Assembly (NCBI GenBank): GCA_023138875.1
Contig: JAGLOO010000009.1
Coordinates: forward strand, 1-64,000
Direction of reading: 5' to 3'
Length of the DNA stretch: 64,000 nucleotides
Origin: Bacteroidales bacterium
GTDB lineage: Bacteria > Bacteroidota > Bacteroidia > Bacteroidales > GCA-2748055
Position numbers and translations under genes: made by a program. The notes below the pieces were generated by a model. It had not been told where the DNA came from. It saw nothing but the letters and a program-made list of their open reading frames with translations, and made no database searches. Shown here piece by piece: positions 2,828 through 9,177 of this stretch; position 1 is the first letter of the stretch, and every line of letters begins with the position of its first letter.

Positions 2828-5167
2828 CTAGTTGGAGAGGATGGATAGAAGTTGCTGATAATTAGCATCATCCGGGTAGTGCTTTACCAGTTTTTGTGCA
2901 TATTTCAAGGCATCCTCGTTTTTCCCGTTTTCCATGGATATGGTGGCCAGGCTGTAGAGGATATTCCGGTCATATGGGTGATCTTCAAGGGCAGCTTCAA
3001 GTATGTTCAGGGCCTCTCCGGGTTTCTGCTGAGAGTTAAGTCCGATGGCGTATACATAACTGTAATGGGGATCAGCCGGATCATTTATTGCAGCTTTTTC
3101 AAGATAGGTCAGTGCCTCCTCCTGATCTCCCTGCCTCACTTTCAGCAGGCCCAATGAATAGTGTATGGGTGCCAGGTCCGGATACTTTTTCAGTGCACTT
3201 TTCAGTGCCTTTTCCCCCTCATCATCCTTGTTTAATCTTCGGTAAAGGTCAGCAAGGTTGATATATGGACCCACAAGTCCCGGTTCTATTTCAATGGCCT
3301 CCCGGTAGGACGCTTCTGCTTTCTCATAATCACCCGTATTCAGGTAGAGGTTTCCAAAATTGAGGTGGGTGGAGGGATGATCGGCATTGATCATCAGGGA
3401 AGCATTGTACTCTTCCAGGGCAGCGTTCAGTGCCTCAGAAGAACTGGATGGGATCAGGTTTCGAGGTACAGCTGTAAGAGAACTGGCTGCCATCAACCTA
3501 ACCAATTTTATGGAGTCCTTTAGCCTGGGAACAGCAAGGTCCCGGATGAATTCGGACTCACCAGACTGGGCCACCGTGAGGGTGGCATAGCGGATCAGTG
3601 GATCCGGATCATTTACAGTACGCCTAAGCAATTCGGTGGTTGCCTGATCCGGATAATTGCCGAGAAGTAAAATTGCGGTGGCCCTGATCATGGGTGCCTG
3701 TTCCCTGTCACTTCCAAGCCTGATTAACCCTGCATGTGCTTCCGGGTAGCGCTGGCGGCCTGCCCAGAAAACTTCACCGTAATGTTCCTGGTCCAGCAGG
3801 TCATCTCCATACCATTCCCTCAAATACCCTGTGGCCCATTGGGTGGATTTGTCATCATGGCATTGATTGCATGCATTGGGTGTACCCAGTTTGTCTGAAA
3901 GATCGGGCCTGGGGATGCGGATGCTGTGATCGCGCCGGGGGTCCACCACCATGTATGTACGTTCGTGCATGTGGCACTCAAAGCAGCTGGCTCCCTCTTT
4001 TGCAGGATCATGAAAATGGTGCTTCCGGCTTCCGTATTCGGTAGCCATGTGGCAGCGGTAACAGAGTGCATTTCCCTGCACAAAAACCTTTCCGCTGTGG
4101 GATTCATGGCAATCTTTGCAAACAACCCCTGCCTGGTACATTTTACTCTGAAGGAATGATGCATAGACATATACCTCCTCCTGGATCTGGCCGTCTGCAA
4201 AATAGAGGTCTTCTTCCAGCAGAGAGGGCCAGTGGGTATCCAGCAATGACCCTCCGTGGTAATAATCTTCTGTGGCAACCGCCCTGCGGGCATGACAGCG
4301 GGAACACATTTGCACCAGTTCGTCAGATTGGCGGGGGACTGAACGGCGTGCGGTAATTGAATCGAGATCGAAAACCCAGGTGGCATTGTCAGTGTCGTTC
4401 AACCTGACCACCAGTCCCATGTCAGGGTATATATCGGGACTGCTGCCTTTTTCCACACGTTCTGCCCAATCAATATGCTCCGATCCGGGACCGTGACAGG
4501 CCTCGCAGGATACATCGATCTCCGACCAGGTGGTATGGTATGCTTTTTCATTATAGACGTAGTTCTTCCTCAGGTTGGTGGAGTGGCATTCTGCACACAT
4601 GTAATTCCAGTTCTGGGTTACCCGGGTCCAGTGAAGTATATCACCGGGAGGGATCCTTTCATCCTGGTATATATGAAACCAGCGCTGTCCGCCCTGATCG
4701 GCCGGACGGGTATCCCAGCAGATAGGCAGGCACTGGTACCTTCCACCGGGAAATTCAATCAGGTATTGCTGAAGGGGCCTGATACCGAATACATAAGATA
4801 CCTCATAATCTTCCATCTCTCCTTCGGGACCTTCTGTATTTACATAATACTTTCCATCCGACATGTAAAACCTGGAGGTGATCCCAAAATGGGTGAACGT
4901 AGCATTGTTAAAGTCACCCAGCACTGTTTCGGGTGTGGTCAGGTCCATGGCCATGTCATGATCCGATCCAAGGAACAGATTATACTCCTTTTCGTGACAC
5001 TCCCTGCAACTTTCCCGGCCCCGGTATTCAGCGGTCTGTCCGGCTTCAATGGTGGGATTTTCGGGGTTACTGGCTGAATCGCCACGTTGACAATTGATTA
5101 CTGTTATCAGTATAACAACAATAAGTACAACGGCTCCCAGCACCTTTGGAACAAATCCCGTCTTCAT
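2828..5167 (-). CDS. Octaheme c-type cytochrome with HEAT and TPR regions
   Basis: A 779-residue exported cytochrome. Residues 8-25 are a hydrophobic signal or anchor; the Cys at 26 has Asn before it, so a lipoprotein site is doubtful. Eight CxxCH heme motifs begin at about residues 54, 191, 221, 288, 350, 369, 395 and 433. Residues ~480-570 look like HEAT repeats (APMIRATAILLLGNYPDQ, DPDPLIRYATL), and ~575-775 are tandem TPRs (NADHPSTHLNFGNLYLNTGDYEKAEASYR and following; quoted in part only). The heme half resembles cytochrome c554/NrfA-like multiheme modules, suggesting electron transfer or reduction of a small substrate. The repeats suggest docking to partner proteins. It is divergent, by 114 bp, from the Rieske/cytochrome b/octaheme operon and is a likely partner of that complex. 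The enzymatic activity, if any, is unknown. Confidence 0.85.
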   Translation of the reverse strand: MKTGFVPKVLGAVVLIVVILITVINCQRGDSASNPENPTIEAGQTAEYRGRESCRECHEKEYNLFLGSDHDMAMDLTTPETVLGDFNNATFTHFGITSRFYMSDGKYYVNTEGPEGEMEDYEVSYVFGIRPLQQYLIEFPGGRYQCLPICWDTRPADQGGQRWFHIYQDERIPPGDILHWTRVTQNWNYMCAECHSTNLRKNYVYNEKAYHTTWSEIDVSCEACHGPGSEHIDWAERVEKGSSPDIYPDMGLVVRLNDTDNATWVFDLDSITARRSVPRQSDELVQMCSRCHARRAVATEDYYHGGSLLDTHWPSLLEEDLYFADGQIQEEVYVYASFLQSKMYQAGVVCKDCHESHSGKVFVQGNALCYRCHMATEYGSRKHHFHDPAKEGASCFECHMHERTYMVVDPRRDHSIRIPRPDLSDKLGTPNACNQCHDDKSTQWATGYLREWYGDDLLDQEHYGEVFWAGRQRYPEAHAGLIRLGSDREQAPMIRATAILLLGNYPDQATTELLRRTVNDPDPLIRYATLTVAQSGESEFIRDLAVPRLKDSIKLVRLMAASSLTAVPRNLIPSSSSEALNAALEEYNASLMINADHPSTHLNFGNLYLNTGDYEKAEASYREAIEIEPGLVGPYINLADLYRRLNKDDEGEKALKSALKKYPDLAPIHYSLGLLKVRQGDQEEALTYLEKAAINDPADPHYSYVYAIGLNSQQKPGEALNILEAALEDHPYDRNILYSLATISMENGKNEDALKYAQKLVKHYPDDANYQQLLSILSN

Positions 5168-5195
5168 CGCAAAATAATTCGTAATGATATAATTT

Positions 5196-5203
5196 CAAAT
5201 GTA
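5196..5203 (-). promoter_or_regulatory. Candidate -7 element of the octaheme-TPR gene
   Basis: TACATTTG on the minus strand fits TANNTTTG, 29 nt upstream of the ATG. No clear TTTG is found at the expected -33 distance, so only the -7 box is supported. Confidence 0.4.
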
Positions 5204-5281
5204 TATAAATTAGATAAATCGACTCTTCGGAGGCACCTATTCAAAAAGAATCTATATAATTTTAGTATTTCAAGCTGTTAA

Positions 5282-5722
5282 ATGAAAAGGAGACATTTTA
5301 TAAAGAAATCGGCAAGCACCTTTGTTGTTGTGGCAGGAGCGCTTGTTGCCGTAAGCTATCTTCGCCAGTTTTTCCCACGATTGGCAGGAGAGAAACGACG
5401 TGTTGCAATTGGAGCTCCCCGGCAGTTTCCAGTGGATACCTATACTTATATTGATGAGCACAACTTTTATGTCTACAGGGACCACGAAGGGATCAAGGCA
5501 GTATCGGCCGTATGTACCCACCTGGGATGCATCCTTGAGAAGAGCACAGATGGATTTGAATGTCCATGTCACGGGTCGTGCTACAACAACAATGGAGAGG
5601 TGCTTTCCGGGCCTGCTCCCAGGAACCTCCCCTGGTACCAGGTGAGTAGGGCTGCCGATGGAAAAATTGTTGTTGATCCCGGGAAGATTGTAGGAGCTGA
5701 GGATAAATTCCTAACCTCCTGA
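5282..5722 (+). CDS. Rieske [2Fe-2S] protein of a bc-type complex
   Basis: A 146-residue protein, typical in size for bacterial Rieske subunits. The N-terminus has a twin-arginine signal (KRRHFIKK at 2-9) and a hydrophobic segment ~12-28, which acts as an uncleaved anchor in this family. The cluster motifs are CTHLGC (78-83) and CPCHGSC (94-100), giving the two Cys, two His and the disulfide-forming Cys pair. [10 protein letters not shown] after the second box is the usual Pro-loop. It should move electrons from quinol bound at cytochrome b to the neighbouring cytochrome c, on the periplasmic face. The next gene starts 2 bp after its stop, so the genes are coupled. Export fits with the tatA gene at 12998. 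Confidence 0.95.
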
Positions 5723-5724
5723 GT

Positions 5725-7125
5725 ATGGATGTGGAAACCAGCGGGAAAGAGCAAAACACCCTTGACCAGCAGGTGCCTTCTGTCAGAAAAAGGAGGGTGG
5801 GAAGGATTACCCAAAATTTCTTTCTTCACATCCATGACACAAGGGTGCATCTGCACTCTTTGAAACCCACCTATACTTTCGGACTGGGAATGATCCTTGG
5901 CTTTCTTTTCCTGATCATGATTTTTACCGGTGTGATCCTGATGATCTATTACACTCCCTCGGTTGAAACAGCATACCAGTCTGTGAAGAACATTGTTTTT
6001 ATTGTGCCGGGCGGACGCATAGTCAGGAATATGCACTGGTGGGCTTCACAGGGCATGGTCATTGTAGTTTTCCTTCATCTCCTGAGGGTATTTTATACAG
6101 GCTCCTACCTGGGCAACAGGTCACTGAACTGGGTGATCGGGGTGGTCATGCTGATTGTGACTCTGTTGAGCAATTTCAGCGGATACCTGTTGCCGTGGGA
6201 CCAGCTTGCTTACTGGGCGGTTACTATTGGTTCCAATATTGCAGCATCTGCAAGAGAGCTGACAGACCTGTTGGGTATTACCAGCGTTATTGATCCGGGA
6301 GGATTTCTGAAAAAACTGTTGATCGGGGGAGAGACGGTGGGACAACCGGCCCTGTCACGTTTTTTTGCCCTTCATGTAATATTCCTTCCCCTGACCATGC
6401 TGGTGTTGATGAGTGTCCATTTCTGGAGGATCAGAAAGGATGGCGGATTGAGCCGGCCAGCACAATATGCAGGAGACAAAGGGGGAACCAATAAATGGTA
6501 TGCCTGGCCTGTGTTGATGTGGACCGAACTGGGTATCCTGATCCTGGTTGTTGTTGTGGTCCTTTTCATTGCACTTTTGACAGATGCCCCCCTTCTGGAA
6601 CAGGCCAATCCTTCCTTCCCCGAAAATCCAGCCAAATCGCCCTGGTATTTCCTGGGTATCCAGGAACTTGTATCATACTCGGCATTTTCCGGTGGATTGT
6701 TGATCCCCGTGCTCTATTTAGTATTCCTCTTCTCTATTCCTTACAAGGACAGGGAGGATAGGTATGTGGGGGAATGGTTTTCAGGACGAAAAGGATTAAA
6801 ACTGGTACTCTATTCGGCAGGTTTTGCATTGTTGCTGGTCATATCCCAGCTCTTTGTAATGGTCAGGTACGGGTGGTTCAGGGACTGGTTTCCGGGGATT
6901 TCCCAGTGGTTTGTGATACTGCTGAACCCGGCCACCATTACAGCTGTCATATTTATCCTGTTGGCTGAATTTACCAGGCGTCGGATGAATTCTACCAGGA
7001 TGGGTTCACTGGTCCTTTTTACCTGTGCCTTCGTGGCACTGGTTGTGTTTACAGTGGTGGGCATCTGGTTCAGAGGCCCCAACTGGGAGTTTTTCTGGTC
7101 AACCAACCACTGGCCGGTTCTATAG
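5725..7125 (+). CDS. Cytochrome b, fused cytb6/subunit IV type
   Basis: This 466-residue integral membrane protein joins the four-helix heme domain and the subunit-IV region in one chain. Heme ligands are visible as His104 and His118 (H-x13-H in helix B) and His217 and His232 (H-x14-H in helix D); the x14 spacing is that of b6f-type rather than mitochondrial-type cytochromes b. LLPWDQLAYWAVTI after helix C is also conserved. At the quinol-oxidation site the usual PEWY is replaced by SPWY (about 305-308), so the Glu is absent there; a Glu follows in GIQE. A ~50-residue basic cytoplasmic extension precedes the first helix. It is the membrane core of the complex, sandwiched between the Rieske gene and the octaheme gene with almost no spacing. 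Confidence 0.94.
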   Translation: MDVETSGKEQNTLDQQVPSVRKRRVGRITQNFFLHIHDTRVHLHSLKPTYTFGLGMILGFLFLIMIFTGVILMIYYTPSVETAYQSVKNIVFIVPGGRIVRNMHWWASQGMVIVVFLHLLRVFYTGSYLGNRSLNWVIGVVMLIVTLLSNFSGYLLPWDQLAYWAVTIGSNIAASARELTDLLGITSVIDPGGFLKKLLIGGETVGQPALSRFFALHVIFLPLTMLVLMSVHFWRIRKDGGLSRPAQYAGDKGGTNKWYAWPVLMWTELGILILVVVVVLFIALLTDAPLLEQANPSFPENPAKSPWYFLGIQELVSYSAFSGGLLIPVLYLVFLFSIPYKDREDRYVGEWFSGRKGLKLVLYSAGFALLLVISQLFVMVRYGWFRDWFPGISQWFVILLNPATITAVIFILLAEFTRRRMNSTRMGSLVLFTCAFVALVVFTVVGIWFRGPNWEFFWSTNHWPVL

Positions 7126-7134
7126 AAAGCATTG

Positions 7135-9177
7135 ATGAACGAACAGAAATATACATACAGGGTACAATGGCTTGTTCTTATTGGAGCAGTCTTGCTATTC
7201 CTGTTGCTGTTCAGCGCCTGGATCAGTGAGGGATTGAATAAAGAGTGGCGAAAACAACAGAAGGCCTATGTAAAGCTTCTACGGGAACAGGCAGATTTGG
7301 ATGGAATCTCGGGGGGTGGAGACTTTGAGAGGGGAATCTTCCAGGTAGAACTTCCACGCTTTAACAGGGCTGACCGATGCATATCCTGTCACCACGGACT
7401 TGAGGATCCACGCATGGTTGATGTACCACAACCCCATACCATGCATCCCGGCACATTTCTGGAAGACCATCCGGTACAACAATACGGTTGCACCATCTGT
7501 CACGGTGGCCAGGGAGGGGCCCTTACGCAGAATGATGCTTTTGGCCGACTTCCGGATACCCACTGGCCATACCCGCTCCTGGAACAACCCTATATCCAGG
7601 CTTCTTGCGGGAAGTGCCATCTTGCCATCTTTAATGGCGCTGGATCTGTAAACCATGAAGAAATGAGCGGAATGGAGGTATTCCAAAGGGGGAAAAATAT
7701 CTTCTCCCTGGAGGGATGCCTGGGCTGTCACAAGGCCAGGGGTGTGGGAGGAATTGTTGCCCCGGACCTTACCCAGCAGGGAGAAAAAACAAAACATGAA
7801 TACAGCTTCCAGAACATCATGGGAGAGCAAACCATTTCCAACTGGTTAAAGGAGCATTTTAAGGACCCTGAAATGGTATCACCGGGTTCCCAGATGCTCA
7901 GTATCAACCTGGAAGAAACAGAGATGGAAGCCCTTGCTGTTTTTGTAATGGGACTTTCAAAACCCGATATTCCATTAGATTATTTCACCATGGCCACCCT
8001 GACTGAGTTCAAGGGGATCAGGGATCCCCTGGAAGGAAAATCCGGATATGACTACCTCTGTTCGGCCTGTCATGGCAAGGAGGGTGAAGGTAAAGATTTC
8101 AATGATTATACTACTGGTGTTCCAGCCATTGGCAATACAGATTTCCTGAGAGTTGCTTCCCGGGAGTTCATCAGGTTCACCCTTGAAAAGGGCAGAAGCC
8201 TGCGGCAGATGGGTAGCTGGTCTTTCGATGTCTCCGGCCTTCGGGAGAATGAACTTGATGAAATTAGCACCTATTTAAAAATTAGCGAGGGCAAAATGAT
8301 CGAAGATATATCAGGTAAGTACCCTGGTATTGGAACCAGGGGCCAGCAAATGTTTACCAGTTATTGCACGGCATGCCATGGAGAGGAAGGGAAAGGTGGT
8401 GTTGCTGTGGCCCTGAATCAGCTGGGGTTCCTGGAAAGAGCAACAGATGATTTTATCCTGGAAACCCTGCTTCGTGGCAGGAGTAATACAGCCATGCCGG
8501 GTTGGTCACACCTGGATAATGCAGCCCTGGCGGACCTGCTGTCATATCTCCGGTCGTGGAATGGTGCGATGCCCATCAGCCCGGAAATGGTAATACCACC
8601 AGCAGATGTGGAAGACGGGGGACTGAAGTACCATTTTCTGTGTTCGCGCTGTCATGGTGAATTTGGAGAGGGGGAGACCGGTCCGGCTATCATCAATCGT
8701 GATTTCCTGGATGCGGCTGACAACAGGTATCTCTATGAGACCATTGCCAGGGGCCGTATGAATACAGCCATGTTCGGATGGTCGGCCGATGTGTACAACC
8801 AGGAAAAGCTGGAACTCGGGGATATCAGCAACATCATAACATTCATGAGAAGTGCGGCAGGTGGTCCGCTTACCTATATTTTCCCGGGAAGTAATCCGGG
8901 CAGCAGGGTAGACGGGGCAAAGATTTTTAAAACACGTTGTATTGAGTGCCATGGAATATCGGGCGAAGGAACAAAAGGTCCGGCCATCAACAACCAGGAG
9001 GTCCTGAGTGCGGCGTCCAATGGGTACATCATGGCCACCATTACCCTGGGCAGGGGTGGAACCGCCATGCCGTCGTGGGGTTATGGACAAGGTGACTATC
9101 CAGCGCTGTCGGGAACAGAGCGTCAGGACCTGGTTGCATTCATTCGGTCGTGGCAACGCATCAGGATCAAGTATTAG
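7135..9177 (+). CDS. Membrane-anchored octaheme c-type cytochrome of the bc-type operon
   Basis: I start this 680-residue protein at the ATG at 7135; a TTG sits one codon earlier. A transmembrane helix at ~11-30 anchors it with the bulk in the periplasm. Eight CxxCH motifs begin at about 82, 119, 158, 195, 309, 411, 503 and 602. The first three form a compact N-terminal multiheme part. The remaining five each sit in a class-I cytochrome c domain, the last four being clear repeats with CHGxxGEG, GPAI and a TAMPGW-like distal segment bearing the Met ligand. Its position, 9 bp after cytochrome b, suggests it replaces cytochrome c1 as electron acceptor from the Rieske protein. Terminal acceptor unknown. 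The repeated domains probably arose by tandem duplication. Confidence 0.9.
   Translation: MNEQKYTYRVQWLVLIGAVLLFLLLFSAWISEGLNKEWRKQQKAYVKLLREQADLDGISGGGDFERGIFQVELPRFNRADRCISCHHGLEDPRMVDVPQPHTMHPGTFLEDHPVQQYGCTICHGGQGGALTQNDAFGRLPDTHWPYPLLEQPYIQASCGKCHLAIFNGAGSVNHEEMSGMEVFQRGKNIFSLEGCLGCHKARGVGGIVAPDLTQQGEKTKHEYSFQNIMGEQTISNWLKEHFKDPEMVSPGSQMLSINLEETEMEALAVFVMGLSKPDIPLDYFTMATLTEFKGIRDPLEGKSGYDYLCSACHGKEGEGKDFNDYTTGVPAIGNTDFLRVASREFIRFTLEKGRSLRQMGSWSFDVSGLRENELDEISTYLKISEGKMIEDISGKYPGIGTRGQQMFTSYCTACHGEEGKGGVAVALNQLGFLERATDDFILETLLRGRSNTAMPGWSHLDNAALADLLSYLRSWNGAMPISPEMVIPPADVEDGGLKYHFLCSRCHGEFGEGETGPAIINRDFLDAADNRYLYETIARGRMNTAMFGWSADVYNQEKLELGDISNIITFMRSAAGGPLTYIFPGSNPGSRVDGAKIFKTRCIECHGISGEGTKGPAINNQEVLSAASNGYIMATITLGRGGTAMPSWGYGQGDYPALSGTERQDLVAFIRSWQRIRIKY

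Follow-up and report, generated by a model that had tools for sequence, protein, structure and literature searches.

Rieske/cytochrome b genes beside multiheme c-type cytochromes have been described in several bacterial groups; the following statements, and the comparisons drawn from them, reflect excerpts of the cited papers. In Nitrospina gracilis an octaheme protein is the only cytochrome c neighbouring a bc-like operon, and the same applies to Kuenenia and Methylomirabilis oxyfera (PMC3578206). The Kuenenia complexes Kustd1480-1485 and Kuste4569-4574 have hexa- or octaheme subunits, with an HAO-like partner in Kuste4569-4574 (PMC12954380), petBC adjoins an octaheme nitrite reductase (ONR) in Nitrospirales (PMC12342949), and Rieske/cytochrome b genes adjoin eHao in Caldithrix (PMC5317091). 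The ext cluster of Geobacter combines ExtO (a Rieske protein), ExtP and ExtQ with ExtN, ExtM and multiheme cytochromes (PMC5877670). A Rieske/cytochrome b complex beside an octaheme reductase has already been proposed for Nitrospira, anammox bacteria and Caldithrix. Here we analyzed the first 64,000 nucleotides (positions 1 to 64,000 of the forward strand; the window) of contig JAGLOO010000009.1 from a Bacteroidales bacterium (GCA_023138875.1; 99.6% complete, 4.8 Mb, 87 contigs), which encode a Rieske protein, a cytochrome b, an anchored cytochrome with eight CxxCH motifs (C8) and, divergently, a cytochrome with eight CxxCH motifs and HEAT/TPR repeats (TPR8). With a confidence about midway between doubt and conviction, we propose that the Rieske/cytochrome b complex encoded here oxidizes menaquinol, carries a multiheme arm and has TPR8 as its dedicated periplasmic partner. 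No description of a HEAT/TPR octaheme cytochrome paired with a bc complex was found in the open literature searched and, as far as that search reaches, the OcwA/MccA-like HEAT/TPR octaheme partner, its occurrence in two arrangements and its differing anchor are new.

As in Kuenenia, Nitrospina and Methylomirabilis, the locus joins a Rieske protein and a b6-like cytochrome b to a multiheme (there hexa- or octaheme) cytochrome c that replaces cytochrome c1 or f. However, cytochrome b is split in these organisms and whole here, and their octaheme subunits are likened to C8 by description only. A putative NAD(P) oxidoreductase belongs to both Kuenenia complexes, whereas no such gene is interposed among the four genes here, and the additional octaheme protein of Kuste4569-4574 is HAO-like, whereas TPR8 is OcwA/MccA-like with HEAT/TPR repeats. 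The loci of Nitrospirales and Caldithrix likewise have Rieske/cytochrome b genes beside an octaheme reductase, for which the complex was proposed as electron donor. Those octaheme proteins are named ONR or HAO-type, while a profile of TPR8 instead finds OcwA, c554 and MccA. Compared with the Geobacter ext proteins, the cytochrome b is most similar to ExtP, its best NCBIfam match, and its second half to ExtQ, both below the curated cut-offs (233.4 bits versus 290 and 54.4 bits versus 150, respectively). The octaheme part of TPR8 shares a sequence match and the order of motifs with OcwA of Thermincola potens (6I5B) and with MccA (4RKM), but it lacks OcwA heme 5 and, unlike either protein, is followed by C-terminal HEAT/TPR repeats.

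The gene layout was described in an earlier note on this DNA, and re-reading confirmed it: the gaps are 114 bp between the divergent TPR8 and Rieske genes, 2 bp between the Rieske and cytochrome b genes and 9 bp from there to the ATG of C8 (an alternative TTG start lies at 7132), and each cytochrome c has eight CxxCH motifs. The nearest relatives are, by title, Bacteroidales/Bacteroidetes metagenome-assembled genomes (MAGs). The linkage of the four genes was followed in 61 genomes of the lineage (the window's own and 60 relatives). C8 was found in 24 of them, after two very weak matches (G043 and G057) among 26 had been dropped, and TPR8 in 23, counting only those of 57 matches that extend beyond the TPR repeats. 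Both proteins occur in 21 genomes. In G008, G014 and G017 their genes are split between contigs, and in the other 18 they share one; all four genes stand in order in 15 of these, counting the window's own genome and genes that lie at a contig end. In a 60-row TPR8 tree, whose bootstrap is not fully settled, the window's clade comprises 22 rows (support 98/100), and TPR8 lies divergently beside the Rieske gene in 21 of them. The remaining row, G014, is at a contig end with the promoter blocks still visible. G022 has TPR8 and the Rieske gene followed by the contig end, and no cytochrome b (PF00033) was found in this 88%-complete genome. The same four genes also occur in an Aminicenantes MAG (L041), with 916 bp between the Rieske and cytochrome b genes.

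The divergent promoter region contains two conserved blocks. Its alignment was based on nine chosen loci, one of which (L033) was dropped for its length. Two stretches, of 24 and 23 columns, are identical in all eight aligned loci of the genus, whereas the coding DNA on either side diverges. Scoring then covered all 22 rows of the clade: block 1 (at most 3 mismatches) was found in 14, block 2 (at most 5 mismatches) in 14 and both in 11, and reversed-sequence controls gave 0 and 0 of 22. The minus strand of block 1 resembles TAnnTTTG, which we take to be the Bacteroidota -7 box, and a scan for E. coli-type promoters gave 12 hits versus 9.8 (standard deviation 3.1) in shuffled sequences. Only block 1 is present in G002 and L033, which are closely related to the window's type, and neither block is present in the Aminicenantes locus. 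Block 1 occurs once in the window, and the search for a wider regulon yielded one more genomic copy of the block 2 core, which carries 3 mismatches. The blocks thus support a putative co-regulation of TPR8 and the Rieske gene near the window that fades with distance, and the genetic link between TPR8 and the bc genes is well supported.

A second arrangement was found outside the window's clade. Among 395 genomes sampled from the phylum, 30 encode TPR8 homologues, and in two of these, the window's genome and G405, bc genes are adjacent. The order in G405 is cytochrome b, Rieske, TPR8, all co-directional and without C8. Within the order to which G405 belongs, TPR8 is present in 10 of 146 genomes. 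The Rieske gene directly precedes it on the same strand in eight of the ten, preceded by cytochrome b in seven of these; in G551 the contig starts within the Rieske gene. G018, from the window's own family, is of the operon type as well. The operon group forms a clade in the TPR8 tree (support 100/98; nine operon members and two without an operon), and in the stretches examined the operon type encodes no multiheme cytochrome other than TPR8 beside the complex. According to our simple hydropathy-and-Cys rule, all nine operon-encoded TPR8 proteins begin with a hydrophobic helix and lack a Cys, while a lipoprotein-like Cys is found in 22 of 22 proteins of the window's clade and in 27 of 27 other TPR8 proteins. 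Of the two operon-clade proteins encoded outside the operon, that of G200 retains the helix and that of G354 has a Cys. TPR8 thus appears to be helix-anchored where it is the sole c-type cytochrome encoded with the complex and lipoprotein-like where C8 is present. The suggestion of the earlier note that TPR8 may be the partner of the complex is backed by the kept divergent adjacency, by the promoter blocks and by this operon in another lineage, which the note had not foreseen. Two of the operon genomes each encode a second PF00033 cytochrome b away from the operon (G530:C1:635870-636409 and G531:C12:85057-85596).

TPR8 matches Cytochrome_C554/C7, HEAT_2 and many TPR models in Pfam. The putative lipobox Cys26 is present in nine of nine aligned sequences (the window included) and in 92% of a set of 49, which was restricted to proteins with exactly eight CxxCH motifs and at least 560 amino acids. 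Six His residues outside the motifs (70, 231, 357, 383, 386 and 414) are invariant in all 49, and invariant Met is present as well. The operon-type TPR8 of G539 shows seven CxxCH motifs; L226, in which seven were found, was excluded from alignment A4. A structure model from eight close sequences is confident for the HEAT/TPR part, while most of the octaheme part has a predicted local distance difference test (pLDDT) score below 50; strands between hemes 1 and 2, as in OcwA and MccA, are predicted with low confidence. A profile of 24 octaheme sequences matched OcwA (6I5B) best by far among PDB entries (E value 1.3e-25), followed by the multiheme cytochrome 6QVM (3e-13), c554 (8.1e-8), MccA (8.6e-6) and two more cytochromes (2e-5 and 6e-5), with two weak matches at 0.015 and 0.024, the latter being NrfA. 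None of the nine matches with E values up to 0.1 is labelled HAO or ONR. Along its heme motifs, the octaheme part appears to be kin to the NrfA/c554/MccA/OcwA superfamily. In our reading of the alignments, TPR8 hemes 1-3 correspond to OcwA hemes 1-3 and hemes 5-8 to OcwA hemes 6-9, and therefore OcwA heme 5 is missing from TPR8; MccA also lacks it according to the OcwA authors, who report, in the excerpts of that paper, bis-His ligation for hemes 1, 3, 4, 6, 7 and 8, His-Met ligation for heme 9 and open sites at hemes 2 and 5 (PMC6703420). The six invariant His residues would fit a mostly bis-His octaheme protein with one open site, and the alignment with OcwA heme 2 suggests that this site is heme 2. 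Two further observations concern TPR8 relatives: in two genomes of one family (G302 and G392) a heptaheme relative lies beside the octaheme one (L207 9994-12012 and L214 3987-6077), and in three genomes of one family, where bc genes are not adjacent, lipoprotein-like ankyrin-repeat proteins are encoded directly upstream of TPR8 (L202 6649-7299, L203 8726-9346 and L206 8313-8942).

The Rieske protein carries the cluster motifs CTHLGC and CPCHGSCY, which contain the CxH and CxxH ligand patterns; its relatives are alike, and by inspection its N-terminus is twin-arginine-like. The full-length cytochrome b consists of a b6-like half and a subunit-IV-like half and is the only PF00033 cytochrome b of the genome. 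Its four heme ligands (His104, His118, His217 and His232) are kept in 94 of 94 aligned sequences with spacings of 13 and 14, presumably as in b6. The Qo motif is SPWY (residues 305-308), and A/S-P-W-Y is found in 93 of the 94 sequences and SSWY in one, without the acidic second residue of PEWY or PDWY. At the column that we take to be the position of the heme cn Cys of cytochrome b6, Gly is found in 92 of 94 and Ala in two (alignment A2 was made without L043, which has a masked stretch). The best 80 of at least 574 confirmed cytochrome b relatives were kept for a scan of their surroundings. By title the relatives belong to Bacteroidota, Aminicenantes, Acidobacteriota, Planctomycetota, Omnitrophota, Nitrospirota and Myxococcota/Deltaproteobacteria, and further to Wallbacteria, Verrucomicrobia, Spirochaetia, Poribacteria and others. 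A Rieske open reading frame (ORF) is upstream in 78 of the 80 loci; the other two, L038 and L040, start within 1 kb of cytochrome b. Downstream, 77 loci have a C8-like ORF, and in the three loci without a full one (L037, L043 and L084) the contig stops at most about 210 bp past cytochrome b or inside it, a 53-residue C8 match still being visible in L037. The Rieske-cytochrome b-multiheme c arrangement is a widespread type. In a quick, unrooted cytochrome b tree of 49 chosen rows, a single branch separates each of the three groups (window type, operon type and other phyla) from the rest (support 79, 97 and 100), and the union of the window and operon types is neither shown nor rejected.

C8 contains four Cytochrom_C stretches in Pfam and begins with a hydrophobic helix, followed by a three-heme base (CxxCH at 82, 119 and 158) and five single-heme stretches (CxxCH at 195, 309, 411, 503 and 602; candidate Met ligands 254, 359, 454, 546 and 645). 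It was aligned with 32 of 71 relatives, picked by heme number and match. The hydrophobic N-terminus is present in all 33 proteins, as are hemes 1-5, while heme 6 is found in 32, heme 7 in 22 and heme 8 in 21. C8 is thus conserved in its anchored core and varies in its tail of single-heme domains. Four residues do not vary (His104, His112, Met254 and Met359), and 97% of the proteins have Met454. Among the 71 relatives, some of them truncated, 70 have 5 to 10 CxxCH motifs and one has 19. The AlphaFold2 model of C8 has a pLDDT of 86.9 and a predicted template modelling (pTM) score of 0.82. Its C-terminal domains match cytochrome c6, cytochrome c subunits of bcc complexes and others; the Foldseek matches listed all consist of or contain class I cytochrome c domains, and the VIA-align matches listed all start at model residue 299 or later, so that the three-heme base is barely covered, which is no proof of a new fold. 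The cytochrome c1 model PF02167 had no match in the whole genome (E 0.001), and the earlier note had already seen no c1 at the locus; in 14 control genomes it matched in one (Caulobacter). The replacement of c1 by C8 is supported by the gene order wherever the contig reaches and by the confident model with its N-terminal helix. However, it is less special than had been thought, because the type is widespread and, going by the excerpts, partly published (PMC3578206, PMC12954380). The 19-motif relative is a protein of 952 amino acids in a Phycisphaeraceae MAG (L054 9418-12273), encoded after a similar Rieske and cytochrome b pair.

No aa3- or cbb3-type oxidase was recognized in the genome, whose sole COX1 homologue scores far below both models. 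In the absence of a recognized oxidase fed by cytochrome c, the complex therefore needs another acceptor. A bd oxidase is present, an enzyme that draws electrons from quinol, as are NrfHA and two NrfD proteins, at most candidates for an alternative complex III. NrfHA, the COX1 homologue, the bd oxidase and the NrfD proteins give no pointer to the substrate of TPR8. The COX1 homologue might be a nitric oxide reductase and not an oxidase; its gene adjoins those of a 187-amino-acid protein without Cys and, by inspection, an Rrf2-like regulator (together on contig C53, locus L218 8746-11452).

In the proposed mechanism, cytochrome b and the Rieske protein would oxidize menaquinol. C8, as the substitute for c1, would receive electrons from the Rieske cluster at its three-heme base, its five single-heme domains serving as a tethered wire. 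Its far end would deliver electrons to TPR8, a putative lipoprotein with an octaheme core built as in OcwA and MccA (OcwA hemes 1-4 and 6-9) and an open site expected at heme 2, which would probably be the terminal reductase of a small periplasmic or cell-surface acceptor. In the operon type, TPR8 would be held in the membrane by its own helix, and we propose that C8 is dispensable there because the reductase sits on the complex itself. Tentatively, and granting that the balance tips against it, Bacteroidota may possess a complex III that naturally passes its electrons to an octaheme solenoid reductase of its own, and this in two arrangements, either as C8 plus a lipoprotein or as a membrane-anchored sole c-type subunit. 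Such a system, if real, would act as a self-contained menaquinol:substrate reductase that includes a Q cycle and merges the roles of complex III and of a terminal reductase. It is not settled how bc complexes contribute to anaerobic respiration where a soluble cytochrome c is absent. Periplasmic reductions of this kind are usually fed by the non-translocating quinol dehydrogenases NrfH and NapC; if the proposal is right, direct coupling to a proton-translocating complex would make them energy-conserving. The role of the multiheme arm can be approached by a natural comparison between the two arrangements, which differ in the presence of C8 and in the anchor of TPR8.

Several observations weigh against this proposal. 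Contact, electron flow and catalysis of Rieske/cytochrome b, C8 and TPR8 are inferred, and the Qo motif lacks the acidic residue, therefore a normal Q cycle is only an assumption. Eleven of the 22 rows of the window's clade do not have both promoter blocks together. The octaheme profile also matched a chain labelled cystathionine beta-synthase (9e-7), CxxCH motifs alone may help multiheme profile matches, and the best matching stretch of MccA spans only the heme-1 region. TPR8 heme 4 was placed via c554 heme 4 rather than via OcwA, and by our residue counting His383 aligns with the pocket His of the missing OcwA heme 5, which is not a ligand. Since the octaheme model is unreliable, the open heme is deduced from homology only, and c554 has an open heme, yet is not known to be a reductase. 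The earlier note had also envisaged a single complex including TPR8, to be judged by adjacency, and this test speaks against it: in 28 of the 30 TPR8 genomes of the phylum sample, neither Rieske nor cytochrome b genes lie beside TPR8 in the stretches examined (9 to 16 kb for 19 genomes, at most 1.5 kb per side for nine). PF00033 has no match in 22 of these genomes and a weak one in two, and in four (G121, G195, G231 and G302) an above-cut-off cytochrome b is encoded on another contig or about 0.5 Mb away. G200 and G354, both from the operon clade, have TPR8 but no bc genes and no PF00033 match. Conversely, 68 C8-type loci (L044-L111) have no TPR8 in the flanks examined. Neither system, therefore, strictly needs the other.

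Other explanations were weighed against the same data. C8 could serve extracellular electron transfer as a wire that leads to the outer membrane, with TPR8 as a hub among cytochromes rather than a terminal reductase. The variable number of single-heme domains in the C8 tail is wire-like, the genome encodes other multiheme cytochromes (with 7, 10 and 6 hemes in locus L216), and OcwA, the top solved-structure match of TPR8, is described in the excerpts as a cell-surface reductase of solid acceptors (PMC6703420). We nevertheless regard this as unlikely, as no obvious surface-export signal was seen past Cys26 by inspection and the operon variant binds TPR8 to the inner membrane. It is a little less probable still that TPR8 stands outside the electron path as a HEAT/TPR assembly or scaffold factor, or merely shares a promoter. 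HEAT/TPR repeats generally bind proteins, and the 22 TPR8 genomes without a PF00033 cytochrome b would agree with such a role, but the invariance of the six His residues is hard to explain by it, and TPR8 is the sole multiheme cytochrome beside the complex in the examined stretches of the operon type.

Electrons could also flow uphill from a periplasmic donor through TPR8 and C8/Rieske/cytochrome b to the quinone pool. The profile matches include c554, which accepts electrons from hydroxylamine oxidoreductase. In nitrite oxidizers, bc complexes are thought, according to the excerpts, to run in reverse (PMC3578206). Acceptor-side enzymes such as NrfHA, however, fit an anaerobic respirer, and we hold reverse flow to be improbable. 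That the genes are neighbours through an assembly accident or contamination has next to no probability. The titled relatives are metagenome-assembled and the Aminicenantes copies (L038, L040 and L041) are possibly misbinned, but the same gene order is kept in relatives whose proteins are roughly 45-87% identical, which argues against chance, as do the shared contigs in most genomes with both cytochromes, the conserved promoter blocks and the separate operon arrangement. The reading of TPR8 as the dedicated partner of the complex is the one retained here, and the features of the locus are listed in Table 1.

Table 1. Features of the bc locus; positions are those of the window.
Feature	Position	Strand	Details
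TPR8	2828-5167	-	779 amino acids, 8 CxxCH
TPR8, HEAT/TPR part	2831-3790		residues about 460-779
TPR8, octaheme part	3857-5008		residues about 54-437
TPR8, putative lipobox Cys26	5090-5092		codon
Shared divergent promoter region	5168-5281		114 bp, between the TPR8 and Rieske genes
Promoter block 1	5194-5213		minus strand reads TACATTTG
Promoter block 2	5237-5265		contains ATTC-N5-GAAT at 5239-5251
Rieske [2Fe-2S] protein	5282-5722	+	146 amino acids; Pfam PF00355, E 4e-15
Cytochrome b	5725-7125	+	466 amino acids; Pfam PF00033, E 8e-38
C8	7135-9177	+	680 amino acids, 8 CxxCH; start ATG 7135

Another cytochrome cluster of the same genome lies on contig C45 (locus L216 5142-12155). Besides a heptaheme cytochrome with a C-terminal transmembrane helix, it encodes a small cytochrome b-like membrane protein, a lipoprotein that is rhodanese-like by inspection, a lipoprotein-like decaheme protein and a hexaheme protein in which part of the sequence is collagen-like, and it recalls the mixture of rhodanese and cytochromes in the Geobacter ext cluster.

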